DNA of 29,588 bases. It comes from a virus. Numbering within the stretch: position 1 is the first letter of the stretch; each line of letters starts with the position of its first letter. Positions 18,443 through 23,622 of this stretch are shown piece by piece. The position numbers were made by a program, and so were the translations under genes. The notes beneath the pieces were generated by a model. That model was given only the letters and a program-made list of their open reading frames with translations, did not search any database and was not told the DNA's origin. Where the stretch lies: positions 1-29,588 of the IMG/VR virus record IMGVR_UViG_3300032073_000158; one strand, given 5' to 3'.

Positions 18443-20008
18443 TCATGAGTGTGTCTCCTCTAATGTAAACGAATGTGAGTCAAATAGAAGAGTACCTGCC
18501 ATACCTTCTTCAGAACAAGGGCGGTTCTTCTCTACCCGTAGCTGCGTAGTATTACGCTCATGGTCATCCTCTGACAATTTATCACGGTACAGGTCAATAA
18601 TCACAGAAGCTCTCTGACCGATCATCTTACAGTACTTAGGGTCACCATTCTCGTTTGTATGTGCAATGGTCACAATACCTACGTTAAGCTCTGCAGCAAG
18701 CTTAGAGAGCCTTACAGATAGATCTGCAAGCTGTTGCTCCTTGCTTTCCTCAGAAGAACCTACAACTACATCTTGGATAGGCTCAAAGAATATATACTTA
18801 CACTCACAACCTTGACTTAGATAACGTATCTGCTCAATGAAATCATCAGTATTACCACCGTCAGGCATGTAGAACTGATAGATCAACTCATCCTTGGTAA
18901 GATCCCTGATGGCATCCTCTACTAGGTCGTGTACCCCAAGGGCATCAATGATATCCCTACGTGTCAGATTCTGGTTTAAGTGATAAGACACAAGACCTAA
19001 CAGAGAACGTAGCTTGGTTTCCTCAAGGTGCCAAGAGGCGAAAGGTACACCCCGTTTGATCATGTTGTACTCAAGGTAACGCATGACCTCAGTTTTACCA
19101 ATGCCAGTAGGTGCTTTGATCACAGTGAAGTGACCCTGCATCAAACCCATGATCTTATCATCAAGAGCTTCGATACCTGTAGGTACATAGTTATACTCAG
19201 GGCTTTCCTTGAATAGCTTGACGAACTGATCTGAGGTATTTAGAATATTCTCAGGGGTATATTTATTAGCATTCCACCAAGCGTTACTGAACTCCTTACG
19301 TGCATTATTGGTAAGGAAATCATTAGCGTCTTTGTAGACATCATGGATAACCCGATAGGTTTTATTCGGGAACATATTGAATATCTTAGCAGCCACTGCA
19401 TTACCAGCTGCATCATTATCAACACTGAGGACGATCTTCTCAAAGCTATCAAGCCAAGGTGTACACTTCTCCCAAAGCCTCTTAGAAGGAGTAGCAGAGG
19501 GTAAAGACACTACAGGTGTGATGGACTTACCACCCATGATCTCCTGCACTGAGAGAGCGTCTATCTCACCCTCAGTGATGGTTACCATACGTGCACAACC
19601 TGCAGGGAATATGTTCATACCAAATAGTTCATCTTGACTAAGGTTCTTAGCCGAGAAGGTCTTAGGCAGTACCCTGATCTTCTTTCCACCGGAGGGGTAG
19701 ACATACTCTTGTTTAACTACGTCTCCTGCGGCATTCTTGTAGCTGCGTACATCATACATCTCCATTACACTACTAGAGATACCTCTAGCTGCAATATACT
19801 CATAGTCTTTTATCTCTGGTATCTCTACATCAAAAGCCATTTCTTCATCACTCCTATTGCTTTTACGTTTCACCACTTTATCTATTGCGAAAGACCAATC
19901 ATCGCAAGACTTACAATGTCCTATTCCTTCATCTGTATTGTAGCTGTAGGCATCAGAGCTGCCACAACCCTCTACATTAGGACAAGGTAATCTACCTATC
20001 TCTGGCAT
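18443..20008 (-). CDS. Primase-helicase, T7 gp4-like (521 aa)
   Basis: The ATG at 20008, with AGAGGA upstream, is preferred; an ATG seven codons earlier (20029) also has a weak signal. Numbering from the earlier start: a zinc-ribbon C16-x5-C22-x16-C39-x2-C42; TOPRIM motifs ITEGEIDAL (E153, E155) and LSVDNDAAG (D204, D206); then a RecA-like helicase with Walker A APTGIGKT (306-313). This is the T7 gp4 architecture: it makes primers and unwinds DNA ahead of the Tyr-type family A polymerase. The gene is first in the leftward replication operon, behind the promoter at 20061-20089 and beside the iterons. Confidence 0.92.
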   Translation of the reverse strand: MPEIGRLPCPNVEGCGSSDAYSYNTDEGIGHCKSCDDWSFAIDKVVKRKSNRSDEEMAFDVEIPEIKDYEYIAARGISSSVMEMYDVRSYKNAAGDVVKQEYVYPSGGKKIRVLPKTFSAKNLSQDELFGMNIFPAGCARMVTITEGEIDALSVQEIMGGKSITPVVSLPSATPSKRLWEKCTPWLDSFEKIVLSVDNDAAGNAVAAKIFNMFPNKTYRVIHDVYKDANDFLTNNARKEFSNAWWNANKYTPENILNTSDQFVKLFKESPEYNYVPTGIEALDDKIMGLMQGHFTVIKAPTGIGKTEVMRYLEYNMIKRGVPFASWHLEETKLRSLLGLVSYHLNQNLTRRDIIDALGVHDLVEDAIRDLTKDELIYQFYMPDGGNTDDFIEQIRYLSQGCECKYIFFEPIQDVVVGSSEESKEQQLADLSVRLSKLAAELNVGIVTIAHTNENGDPKYCKMIGQRASVIIDLYRDKLSEDDHERNTTQLRVEKNRPCSEEGMAGTLLFDSHSFTLEETHS

Positions 20009-20060
20009 AATTTTTCCTCTTTTAGTCATATCACTCTTCTCAACTGCGAGAAGTAAAACT

Positions 20061-20134: not shown

Positions 20135-20246
20135 ATTTCTATCGCAGCCTTATTTCTATCGGGGGACAATTTCCACTGGCGGGGTAGCTAAACCAATTTC
20201 TATCGGGGGCCAATTTCTATCCCAGGCCCATTTCTATCCCAGGGCC
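20135..20246. repeat. 17-bp iteron array (six copies)
   Basis: Copies of a 17-bp unit, consensus ATTTCTATC(G/C)(G/C)RGGSCM, begin at 20135, 20152, 20169 (diverged), 20196, 20213 and 20230. They form two sets of three, each in exact 17-bp register, separated by 10 extra bases. The array lies between the AT-rich promoter region of the primase-helicase operon (20090-20120) and 12-bp repeats. Tandem iterons beside an AT-rich stretch and a replication initiator or helicase gene are the usual form of an iteron origin. That function is inference; no initiator protein is recognised. Confidence 0.75.
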
Positions 20247-20325: not shown

Positions 20326-20360
20326 CAAAAGAAAAACCCTAGCTAATCTCTTAGCTAGGG
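20326..20360 (-). terminator. Strong intrinsic terminator of the 20.4-23.0 kb operon
   Basis: On the minus strand a perfect 10-bp stem (CCCTAGCTAA/TTAGCTAGGG at 20360-20351 and 20346-20337) with a four-base GAGA loop is followed by TTTTTCTTTT. It lies six bases after the stop of the 63-residue gene. It separates the leftward zinc/peptidase operon from the 12-bp and iteron arrays, so transcription does not run through the presumed origin. Confidence 0.9.
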
Positions 20361-20366
20361 CTTAGT

Positions 20367-20558
20367 CTAGTTTAGTGTATTAGTTTGTTTGTGTATCTCT
20401 AAGTTTACAATATTGGTCATATCTTCCAAAAGAGCTAAGGCTTGAATTAGCATATCTAGCCCTTCTTCAACCCTACCTAAGTTAATAAACACAGCTGATA
20501 GCCTTATGTTCTGCTTAACAGCCTCGGTAACTTCTAGTATTCCTTCTAAGTGTTTCAT
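20367..20558 (-). CDS. Small helical protein (63 aa)
   Basis: The second ATG (20558) is chosen because AAAGGA sits seven bases upstream; an ATG two codons earlier would leave too little room. The protein is almost fully helical (GILEVTEAVKQNIRLSAVFI, then EEGLDMLIQALALLEDMTNI) and ends shortly before the terminator. No motif is recognised. It could be a small binding partner or regulator; function unknown. Confidence 0.6.
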   Translation of the reverse strand: MKHLEGILEVTEAVKQNIRLSAVFINLGRVEEGLDMLIQALALLEDMTNIVNLEIHKQTNTLN

Positions 20559-20581
20559 GGTCATTCCTTTGTTAGAGTTAG

Positions 20582-20599
20582 AGGGGGCCGAAGCCCCCT
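20582..20599 (-). promoter_or_regulatory. UUCG-capped hairpin after the peptidase gene
   Basis: On the minus strand a 7-bp stem AGGGGGC/GCCCCCT is capped by UUCG, four bases after the peptidase stop and before the next gene. It repeats the design of the hairpin after SSB (14390-14409) with different stem sequence. There is no T-run, so it is probably an RNA 3'-end stabiliser or partial terminator. Confidence 0.6.
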
Positions 20600-20603
20600 G
20601 CTG

Positions 20604-21596
20604 TTAGGCTAGGCGACTGGTAACTGTTACGTTAGCACCGTACTCATAGAGTTCGTCTACGAGATCATAGGGGTTCCCGTAGAAGTCCTTGAGCAATAGA
20701 GCCACCGCATTGGGATGGCTACAGACAAGCTCTAGGAAGTCGTCCGCTTCAGTATCCTCTGCCACCATCTTAGACGGTATCCAGCAGTCTCCGTCGTCCC
20801 AGTAGTCGAAGGAGCTTCTATAGCTTCCGTGTTGGGGATACCCCCAGTGACGGTCGTAGTAGTAATCTAACACGGTAGGATCGCGCTCGAATACTAGCTT
20901 TGACCAGTCGGCTGCTATAAGCGCATCTCTGAGGGCTGAAGCGAAGAACAGGTCTTGAGTTTCTCCCTTAGTATGTTGCGCGTTGTAACCTACAGAGACA
21001 TTTGTACACTCTGAGATTAGCTGCGAGTACTCGTTAGAGTCGGTGTAGGAACCCGTAGGATCGGGCCGCATACCTAACCCCAGAATACTGTCTAGGGATA
21101 CTGCAAAGGCATCAGAGCATGTCCTGATCCCCGACTGGTGGGTGATGATATCTTCCTTGCCCTTCCTGTCGAACGATATCACAGCCTTGAGGCTATCCAT
21201 CCATGGCGGGTTGTCCTTAACAAGTTTGCTAGAGCCAATGCACCCGCTTTCTTCTTCGGCATGGACTACATAAACACCCTCGATACCTGCGTCGATCATC
21301 TCTAAGATTAACCATATACCAGTGGCACAGTCTGCGCCCAGACAGTTAGAGTCGCTGTCATTAGCTAGGCTAACGATATCGTTCTTGATCTGGATCTTTT
21401 GCATACCGCCAGAGTTATGCACACTATCGTAGTGAGCTGCAAAGCAGAGCTTAGGGTTGTTACCTATGACAAGCTCATAGTTACCATGCTTGTCTGGAAA
21501 CCCGAAGGTCGGGTGTAGAAAACGGCTACAGAAATCCTTTATGGAATCCGTGCCATGCTTGCGCTTAAACTTAAGCATTGAGGTTAAACTATGCAC
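20604..21596 (-). CDS. M28/M20-like dizinc metallopeptidase (330 aa)
   Basis: The ligand set of a co-catalytic zinc peptidase is readable in order: AAHYDSVH (H55, D57), LGADCATGIW (D89, bridging Asp), HAEEESGCIGS (catalytic and ligand Glu ~114-116), SFDRKG (D143) and YNAQHTKGETQD (H208). The first ~225 residues are the peptidase core; the last ~100 (aromatic/acidic, with YYYDRHWGYPQHG and DDFLELV) are extra. Such enzymes remove N-terminal residues or deacylate small substrates. A phage replication-region copy is unusual. A GTG start at 21596 (AGGAG nine bases upstream, overlapping the previous stop) is preferred over ATG at 21578. It is co-transcribed with the zinc-ribbon protein; the target is unknown. 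Confidence 0.75.
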   Translation of the reverse strand: MHSLTSMLKFKRKHGTDSIKDFCSRFLHPTFGFPDKHGNYELVIGNNPKLCFAAHYDSVHNSGGMQKIQIKNDIVSLANDSDSNCLGADCATGIWLILEMIDAGIEGVYVVHAEEESGCIGSSKLVKDNPPWMDSLKAVISFDRKGKEDIITHQSGIRTCSDAFAVSLDSILGLGMRPDPTGSYTDSNEYSQLISECTNVSVGYNAQHTKGETQDLFFASALRDALIAADWSKLVFERDPTVLDYYYDRHWGYPQHGSYRSSFDYWDDGDCWIPSKMVAEDTEADDFLELVCSHPNAVALLLKDFYGNPYDLVDELYEYGANVTVTSRLA

Positions 21597-23034
21597 TGTC
21601 TTTAGTCTCCTGTTCTCGGGGTTCTAATACCCAATTTTCGTTGGTGTCGTCATAGACATACTTAGTGGTAAAATCATTAAGGTTATACCAAGAGATGCCA
21701 TAAGCAGACGCCCTGCCTCCACAACTTAGATCATTGCTCTGATCGTTATGATAGATTTCTTCTACAAGATCACACATGAAGTAGTCTTCGTCGTATTCGT
21801 CTTGGCTGATAACTATGCCATCCCCTGTAGTATAGACATGGTCCTCATCCCAAGACTCGCCTGACTCAGTTTCTACAGCGTGATGTATAGCGCAATGCTC
21901 GCACCATGTCTGAGGGGTGTTACCCCAGCGATTAACTGTGTGAACTTCCCGCTCCTCATCCCTAGGCATGTCTTCTTCGCAATAGTCGCAACAGAAGAAT
22001 AGAGAGTGGTAACAGTTTTCACAATAGCTGTCACCATCGCGGGTATACACGTAGCTTTCATCTACTGAATCCCCGCACTCTAAACAAGAAGAACAGCCAC
22101 CGGTCATAAGTAAGCCGTTATATTGGCTAGCGTCTATGTCACCACCCCTAGAAATCTCTAGCTTGGTAACGCTGCTGCCACCGGCATACTTTTCCTCTAG
22201 CTGCCTAGGTTCGTAATCAAGATAGGGAGCAATGTAGCCACTTTGGTATGGTATAGCTTTAAGCTGACACCCTATCCATGACTGGTTATCCCCAAGCTCT
22301 ATTTCAGCGAAAGAAATAAACTCGCGAAGTTTCTTGTAGGCCATTTCTGAGACTGCATAGATAGGCCCAGCTTTAGGTTTTATCTCTACACCCGCTCTAG
22401 ATTTGGCTACAACAACACGGCCACCGATACGGCCACCGGCATCTTCTAACCAGATAACCTCGAAGTCACCTGAAGCGTAAGCCTCTGCTGGGTGATTAGG
22501 CATGTGGTCGAACTTGTACCGCATACAGCTATTGACTGAATGTTTCTTATGACAATTCGTATCCAAATTCTCAGGGGATACCTGAGTATGTGAATAGGCT
22601 TTGGCAAAGTCCTTAGCACTAAAGCCAGTGTGTACAGTGTACTCTCTGGGCATTAGCTTAGACTTTACTGCGTCCACTAAGCTATCAATCTCAAAGTCTA
22701 GTAGCTGTGGAAACATTTTTCTAATGGCACGACCTATACGGACACCTCTGCGTCCGCTGCGACCTTTATCCCTAGCTGCTAAGTCAGGGTAGATAAACAT
22801 AGCAGCAGGTTCGTCTTTATCTATGTTAGGCCAATAGATATCTAAGACCTTACTGACGTTAGCTGTCTGTTCATAGTAATAGCTAGTATCAAGACTATCG
22901 CAGTCGTCTACTTCTTGCTTTATCTTTTGAGCTAGGTATTCGTATAAGAAAGTCTTACACCTTTGTGAAAGTCCATTGGAGTCATAGAAAGTTTCTATCT
23001 CCAGACCTTCGAGAGCTTTACCGTAATCTCTCAT
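21589..23034 (-). CDS. Large phage protein with C-terminal multi-CxxC zinc ribbons (481 aa)
   Basis: A consensus AGGAGGT Shine-Dalgarno precedes the ATG. The N-terminal half (1-300) has no recognised motif; it includes KGRSGRRGVRIGRAIRKM (basic, ~90-107) and HPAEAYASGDFEVIWLED. The C-terminal part holds two zinc-ribbon-like clusters: C314-x2-C317-x2-C320, C338-x2-C341, then C348/C349-x2-C352 and C378-x2-C381. Acidic residues flank them. Homologous-looking proteins occur in other phages without known function (from memory). It is the first gene of the operon, under the promoter at 23132-23160, and the peptidase follows with an 8-base overlap. Possible role: nucleic-acid or host-target binding platform for the peptidase (inference). 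Confidence 0.7.
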   Translation of the reverse strand: MRDYGKALEGLEIETFYDSNGLSQRCKTFLYEYLAQKIKQEVDDCDSLDTSYYYEQTANVSKVLDIYWPNIDKDEPAAMFIYPDLAARDKGRSGRRGVRIGRAIRKMFPQLLDFEIDSLVDAVKSKLMPREYTVHTGFSAKDFAKAYSHTQVSPENLDTNCHKKHSVNSCMRYKFDHMPNHPAEAYASGDFEVIWLEDAGGRIGGRVVVAKSRAGVEIKPKAGPIYAVSEMAYKKLREFISFAEIELGDNQSWIGCQLKAIPYQSGYIAPYLDYEPRQLEEKYAGGSSVTKLEISRGGDIDASQYNGLLMTGGCSSCLECGDSVDESYVYTRDGDSYCENCYHSLFFCCDYCEEDMPRDEEREVHTVNRWGNTPQTWCEHCAIHHAVETESGESWDEDHVYTTGDGIVISQDEYDEDYFMCDLVEEIYHNDQSNDLSCGGRASAYGISWYNLNDFTTKYVYDDTNENWVLEPREQETKDSA

Positions 23035-23035
23035 A

Positions 23036-23052
23036 GTTACCTCCTAAGTAAC
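23036..23052 (-). promoter_or_regulatory. Hairpin presenting the Shine-Dalgarno of the 481-aa gene
   Basis: On the minus strand GTTAC-TTAGGAG-GTAAC puts the Shine-Dalgarno in a 7-base loop closed by a 5-bp stem, ending one base before the ATG. Upstream in the same leader, 23064-23077 can form GCAGC-UUAC-GCUGC. This could modulate translation; a stem this short is only suggestive. Confidence 0.4.
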
Positions 23053-23191: not shown

Positions 23192-23205
23192 TTTGTGATC
23201 ACAAA
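23192..23205. promoter_or_regulatory. Palindrome TTTGTGATCACAAA
   Basis: A perfect 14-bp palindrome lies about 32 bases upstream of the leftward promoter's -35. Twelve of its bases (TTTGTGATCACA) recur at 23297-23308. A dimeric DNA-binding regulator is the natural reading; TGTGA/TCACA half sites recall CRP/FNR-type recognition but lack the spacer. Confidence 0.5.
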
Positions 23206-23296: not shown

Positions 23297-23308
23297 TTTG
23301 TGATCACA
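23297..23308. promoter_or_regulatory. Second TTTGTGATCACA palindrome
   Basis: This is the second copy of the palindrome at 23192, exactly 105 bp away (about ten helical turns), directly before the 12-bp repeat array. The equal helical face suggests co-operative binding or looping. Confidence 0.5.
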
Positions 23309-23312
23309 TAGG

Positions 23313-23588
23313 TGCTGCCCTGGCCTGGTCCGAGGCTAAAACTTTAGGTCATTTCCCATCCTGGGCCTTAGCTAAGGTCTAACCCTGGAGCCTGGGCTAG
23401 TTCCTACCCTGGGGCCTGGCCTGGAGCTAACCCTGGAGCCTGGCTTAATTTCTACCCAGGGTCTAGCCCTGGAGCCTGGCCTGGAGCCTGGCTTATTTCC
23501 TATCGAGGGTCTTAGCTTAGGGCTATGCTTAGGGCCTAGATATGGCCTATGCTATGGTCTAAGCTATGGCCTAGGCTATGATCTAGGC
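23313..23588. repeat. 12-bp repeat array with 48-bp higher-order period (23 units)
   Basis: The whole 276 bp can be read as 23 units of 12 bp without a gap, most fitting CTGGRGCCTGGC or TAKGGYCTARGC. CTGGAGCCTGGC occurs four times exactly (23433, 23469, 23481, and with one change at 23385). Every fourth unit (starting 23349, 23397, 23445, 23493) is an ATTTC/GTTCC-YAYC variant that also matches the core of the 17-bp iterons, giving a 48-bp higher-order repeat. The last four units (23541-23588) are near-identical TATGRYCTARGC. About fifteen CCWGG sites fall in 23318-23492. An AT-rich run (23592-23620) follows. No coding function is likely. Candidate origin or protein-binding array. Confidence 0.8.
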
Positions 23589-23622
23589 TAGTAAATTAAT
23601 TTAATAATAATGCTTTTTATTG

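Follow-up and report, generated by a model that had tools for sequence, protein, structure and literature searches.

A predicted M28/M20-clan dizinc peptidase and its near-obligate partner gene in phages and other mobile elements

Results

Organization of the locus

The window is a stretch of 29,588 nucleotides, positions 1 to 29,588 of the 29.6-kb IMG/VR virus record IMGVR_UViG_3300032073_000158. Two adjoining genes had been predicted in it, and both open reading frames were verified at their predicted coordinates on the minus strand. The first, here called S (21589..23034), encodes a 481-residue partner protein with a helical N-terminus, a GNAT-like core and LIM-like zinc repeats, and its homologues adjoin the second gene in many loci. 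The second, here called P (20604..21596), has a GTG start and encodes a 330-residue predicted dizinc peptidase of the M28/M20 clan. The reading frames overlap by 8 nt (21589..21596, minus strand), with the GTG of P over the stop of S, and an overlap or near-overlap is retained among relatives. Strong ribosome-binding sequences are present on the minus strand for both genes, AGGAGG for S (23040-23045) and P's own AGGAG (21607-21611). The original prediction assigned a promoter and a terminator to each gene, but S and P are one transcription unit, and the promoter-like match at 23160-23132 is at chance level, as the region has 10 such matches and shuffles give 7.5 +/- 2.5. Directly after the stop of P is a 7-bp GC hairpin, AGGGGGC-TTCG-GCCCCCT (20582..20599, minus strand), with a fold of -16 kcal/mol and a z of only -1.3. 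The unit is closed by a terminator-like hairpin with a 13-pair stem and a T-run (20334..20363, minus strand), a kind of site that also arises by chance (3.5 expected in shuffles). A 65-residue open reading frame 3' of P (20367..20564, minus strand) is retained downstream of P in near relatives only, and it diverges fast, with 32-100% identity in near relatives whose P proteins are 94-99% alike.

Two TGTGATCACA palindromes are located upstream of S (23192-23205 and 23297-23310). Five matches to this palindrome were found in the window at no more than one mismatch, against 0.16 expected, and the palindromes are possible binding sites for a regulator. The unit had been described as lying between repeat arrays, and these arrays are real. 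Those at 23379-23590 and 20193-20243 consist of 24/48-bp CCTGGAGCCTGG-type and 17-bp repeats, are non-coding and flank the unit on both sides. The unit had also been placed apart from the replication operon. It is in fact directly upstream of, and in the same direction as, a T7-type primase-helicase gene with Toprim and DnaB_C domains (18443-20029, minus strand). The same arrangement is seen in KP34-type phages, and the S-P unit was therefore assigned to the early region.

The peptidase

P matched the Pfam model of peptidase family M28, clan MH (PF04389), at 7.6e-7, with 29.5 bits against a gathering score of 21.3 and thus above the cut-off, and 66 of 67 relatives of P had M28 matches at E <= 0.01. 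P also matched PHROG 4191, 'peptidase', at 3e-74 over the catalytic domain, the match covering residues 4-247. A phmmer search of the PDB with the single P sequence returned chance matches only, and a profile was needed; the profile of 67 relatives identified the Staphylococcus aureus tripeptidase 3rza (3e-11) and Bacillus cereus PepT 3gb0 (5e-11). The AlphaFold2 model of P (pLDDT 89.5) aligned with PepT 3gb0 over 223 residues at 2.5 Å, with a Z of 23.3.

A full ligand set had been predicted for P (H55, D57, D89, E114-E116, D143 and H208), and every one of the named residues is present. Residues H55, D57, D89, E115, E116, D143, D186 and H208 are invariant in all 67 aligned relatives. The metal site, whose collapse would have counted against the original prediction, is expected to be intact, given this invariance and the alignment of the model with PepT. 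P is thus well supported, by sequence and model, as a predicted dizinc peptidase of the M28/M20 clan.

The catalytic domain (residues 1-236; 20889..21596, minus strand) was modelled as a single domain that aligns with the catalytic part of PepT, TET1 and DapE. P has the catalytic fold and ligands in common with the PepT/tripeptidase structures (3gb0, 3rza) and the TET aminopeptidases, but differs from these enzymes in lacking a lid or dimerisation domain and in having a C-terminal tail. No lid or dimerisation domain of the M20 type was found in the approximately 236-residue catalytic domain; D143 and H208 are separated by only about 65 residues, and the alignment covers 223 of the 373 residues of PepT.

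The tail (residues 248-330; 20607..20855, minus strand) is composed of a disordered linker and a helical C-terminal segment, with helices at residues 282-318 in the AlphaFold2 model, and is proposed to be an element that docks on S. In 129 paired P proteins a median of 113 residues (61-162) followed the last ligand, as compared with 26-50 residues in seven stand-alone P proteins from bacterial contigs. In this comparison two loci (L029 and L036) were scored as unpaired but have S by sensitive comparison or PHROG. The absence of the tail from stand-alone bacterial P proteins suggests a docking element. Three short-tailed stand-alone P proteins were nested among paired ones in the tree, at weakly supported positions, as would be expected if S and the tail were lost together. 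Against the contrast, stand-alone P proteins are few and mostly distant, and the P protein of Thermus phage P23-45 has the tail with no S nearby. Docking of the tail of P on S is an inference from this contrast.

The partner protein

The most strongly conserved part of S is a core with the pattern SCM...HP...Y...D...GR...Y...PYLD. Residues S169, C170, P182, Y186, Y226, Y271 and D273 are invariant in 70 of 70 relatives, and R206 (96%), D190 (93%) and M171 (96%) are nearly so; the S169-C170-M171 motif is encoded at 22522..22530 on the minus strand. This set of Ser-Cys, Tyr, Asp, Arg, Tyr, Tyr and Asp appears catalytic and resembles an active site.

The AlphaFold2 model of S had a pLDDT of 93.5, and fold matches were computed with the whole model. 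In the VIA-align comparison the best 50 rows were all of GNAT or FemX type, the top match being 7wx6 (Z 7.6, 88 residues, 2.8 Å); the GNAT-like fold is placed at residues 130-250 (22285..22647, minus strand). By Foldseek the GNAT match had an E of only 1.5e-2. A Z below 8 is a level that a common arrangement can reach, and the CoA motif Q/R-x-x-G-x-G/A was found in none of the 70 members of the S family, so S is described here as GNAT-like and not as an established GNAT. No GNAT Pfam match was found in any member.

C-terminal to this core, residues 314-381 (21892..22095, minus strand) form LIM-like zinc repeats, with the cysteine sets C317/C320/C338/C341 and C349/C352/C378/C381 and CxxC motifs at 314, 317, 338, 349 and 378. 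The Pfam LIM match is weak (E 0.0012; 19.4 bits against a gathering score of 22.9, thus below it), and seven of 70 members match LIM weakly. LIM structures were among the Foldseek matches of S. The first zinc set is complete in 65 of 70 aligned members, and the partners in BDU-MI-1 and PPWS1 lack most of the zinc-repeat cysteines and keep the core. S had been viewed as a zinc-ribbon platform. The zinc repeats bear this out in part, but they are an incomplete description, since the strongest conservation is in the catalytic-looking core and the cysteines are lost in some relatives.

Single-sequence searches with S gave a weak LIM match only and no phage record, and S of the window had no significant match in PHROG. 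Two BFVD entries (A0A6J7X5D3 and A0A6J7X2B6), phage amidoligases or LIM-domain zinc-repeat proteins, matched part of S by Foldseek (7e-6 and 9e-5), and these matches probably fall on the zinc repeats. An amidoligase assignment was considered because the N-terminal GLEIE of S resembles GxEIE; it was rejected, as no amidoligase Pfam match was found in 70 members and the motif is not conserved. Unlike the phage amidoligases, S has no amidoligase domain.

Pairing across relatives

In Pasto, SU552A, KP34, VP93, PPWS1 and BDU-MI-1, P is immediately preceded by a gene for a partner of 480-710 residues. The Pasto partner is homologous to S by blastp (7e-9), and profile comparison with S gave 3e-12 for the PPWS1 partner and 5e-15 for that of KP34. 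The VP93 and KP34 partners have PHROG 6980 in common, which also matches the BDU-MI-1 partner. By tblastn, P was found in 375 phage records, mostly of Klebsiella, Pectobacterium and Vibrio phages.

In an IMG/VR scan led by the partner, P adjoined S in 68 of 72 new loci, and the other four loci end within or just behind S; P was thus beside S in 68 of 68 informative loci found through S. The scan led by the peptidase agreed, and in some of its loci S was no more than a few kb away on the other strand. In a scan with each bacterial or archaeal species represented by a single genome, S adjoined P in 32 of 43 peptidase loci, and the pair was also present in alphaproteobacterial chromosomes and plasmids. 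Conservation of the pair across relatives, on which the original prediction depended, was thus observed in KP34-type and VP93-type phages, PPWS1, Pasto and BDU-MI-1 and in the IMG/VR loci.

The relatives in the S and P models come from the very loci by which the pair is defined. In two family samples S and P were sought separately to avoid locus selection. S and P were each found in 3 of 298 genomes in the first sample, side by side in the same three (chance 2e-7), and each in 2 of 327 in the second, in the same two (chance 2e-5); the centre genome of each sample had been picked for carrying the pair, which leaves two independent cases in the first sample and one in the second. Over 57 pairs, the protein distances of S are correlated with those of P (r 0.85), and none of 2000 permutations gave as high a value. 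Linkage and shared descent in mobile elements explain part of the pairing and correlation, which support a physical partnership and are not proof of it. As judged from these sequences, the pairing is near-obligate and the two genes are rarely apart.

Several unusual arrangements were also recorded. A Mesorhizobium STM 4661 contig (L194:3622-10371) contains two distinct S-P pairs arranged in tandem, two phage contigs (L095:9318-10265 and L104:6622-7560) have a second, shorter S-like open reading frame several kb from the pair, and in a Spirochaetaceae MAG contig (L188:283-2635) the order is reversed, with P before S.

Genomic neighbourhood

The pair precedes the primase in the lytic podoviruses KP34, VP93 and PPWS1 and is within the early region of CB5. 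In Pasto it follows an ArdA-like antirestriction gene, and in BDU-MI-1 it precedes rIIA. Integrase-like genes are near the pair in many phage and rhizobial contigs. On Sphingopyxis plasmid pMC4, which was typed as conjugative, the pair is between ParB and toprim genes, and the gene run there (L231:4547-14634), DUF2958-ParB-S-P-toprim-DUF2493-HEPN-Abi, has the look of a region for establishment and conflict. These neighbourhoods are better suited to an early role or one in establishment than to virion assembly, although a position beside establishment genes is seen in a handful of examples. The PADLOC defence models gave no match at E <= 1, and the main text of a paper on plasmid leading regions (PMC11541004) mentions neither DUF2958 nor proteases.

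Discussion

P-type proteins have been listed before, as a 'putative peptidase' in the description of the KP34-like genus (PMC4411677) and, under the same label, among the early genes of PhiM1-like phages (PMC6115819). P is a member of PHROG 4191, the peptidase family of KP34-like, VP93-like and PhiM1-like podoviruses (KP34p11, VP93 gp7, PhiM1_10), and the KP34-like and VP93-like loci have the same S-P order before the primase as the window. They differ from the window phage, in which the pair and the structural genes are on opposite strands; in the PHROG 4191 phages the partner gene is listed as hypothetical. PHROG 6980 and PHROG 13313 (KP34p10 and PPWS1 gene 6), families of unknown function, share homology with S in the SCM core, but their proteins have longer N-terminal parts and the PPWS1 protein is without most of the zinc cysteines. 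In the original prediction, no system of this kind was known to have been described. The peptidase was already annotated, and that claim is narrowed to the pair as a unit and its role, which appear undescribed: the pair was not found in the open literature searched and has no function name in PHROGs, Pfam, NCBIfam or PADLOC. No paper linking phage M20/M28 peptidases to anti-defence was found in the literature searched.

Enterococcus phages of the VRE9 type (L037:2672-5998) encode a related M20-like peptidase, PHROG 34186, with a PHROG 18912 protein on either side; these two proteins are paralogues, and one of them has an SC motif. These 'SC' proteins were considered as relatives of S and set aside, as profile comparison with S gave an E of 0.23.

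The reading we favour, with a confidence somewhat short of even, is that S and P are two subunits of one early enzyme acting on a host, defence or phage target, which S would select and possibly modify and P would hydrolyse. It builds on computed observations: the fold and ligands of P, the near-obligate pairing, the co-variation of S and P, and the early or establishment neighbourhood. For complex formation, tail docking, catalysis by S, the target and the benefit, we infer the following course. P would be an M28/M20-clan dizinc enzyme, either an aminopeptidase or a deacylase, reduced to a catalytic domain and a helical C-terminal tail by which it would dock on S. S would bind a protein or peptide-like target, which it may modify first, and P would next trim or de-acylate the bound target. 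The action would be timed early, for host takeover or the establishment of incoming DNA. An analogy, in mode only, is provided by Rac, a predicted GNAT of a phiKMV-like phage, whose action on a host protein results in the cleavage of host RNA polymerase (PMC7552054). Such a strategy thus exists in phages; the abstract describes no cognate phage peptidase for Rac. The analogy implies no sequence relation of Rac to S, and S lacks the CoA motif. A bolder form of the favoured reading, which we consider clearly less probable, is that S represents a new family of GNAT-fold enzymes independent of CoA and that S-P is a two-component modifier of protein or nucleic acid, by which lytic phages and conjugative plasmids alike would disable a host target or a defence target as they enter.

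Other readings are possible. P may be an aminopeptidase for recycling, releasing amino acids from peptides in the course of infection, with S as a non-catalytic regulator or scaffold. The closest solved relatives of P, the tripeptidase PepT and the TET aminopeptidases, are consistent with this, but a scavenging peptidase would need no near-obligate partner of 450-700 residues with an invariant polar core, and carriage on a conjugative plasmid and an early-region position are ill-suited to nutrition; we regard it as unlikely. To an add-and-remove pair we give the same low probability. In it S, as a transferase of GNAT fold, would put an acyl or aminoacyl group on DNA, tRNA, a metabolite or a protein, and P would remove or trim that group. 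The structural matches of S are GNAT and FemX-type folds, the M20/M28 clan includes the deacylases ArgE and DapE, and phage GNATs that modify host proteins exist, Rac being an example (PMC7552054); the lack of the CoA motif in all 70 S proteins and of a GNAT Pfam match in any member argues against it. It is improbable that the pair serves prophages and plasmids as an anti-phage or superinfection-exclusion module, since it is a core early gene set of lytic podoviruses and has no PADLOC match, even though it occurs on plasmids and in integrated elements and, on pMC4, a few genes away from HEPN and Abi genes. Least probable is a role for S as a zinc-finger transcription regulator with P as a co-factor having a side role, for although S has LIM-like zinc repeats and PepA-type aminopeptidases can bind DNA, several relatives lose the zinc cysteines yet keep the core.

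Several hundred sequenced phages encode P, among them many Klebsiella phages under consideration for therapy, and the pair spans marine phages, prophages and plasmids whose hosts are very different bacteria. Given a partner that is enzyme-like and near-obligate, and a tail that probably serves in docking, what had been a bare 'putative peptidase' label becomes a testable two-protein system in KP34, VP93 and the window phage.
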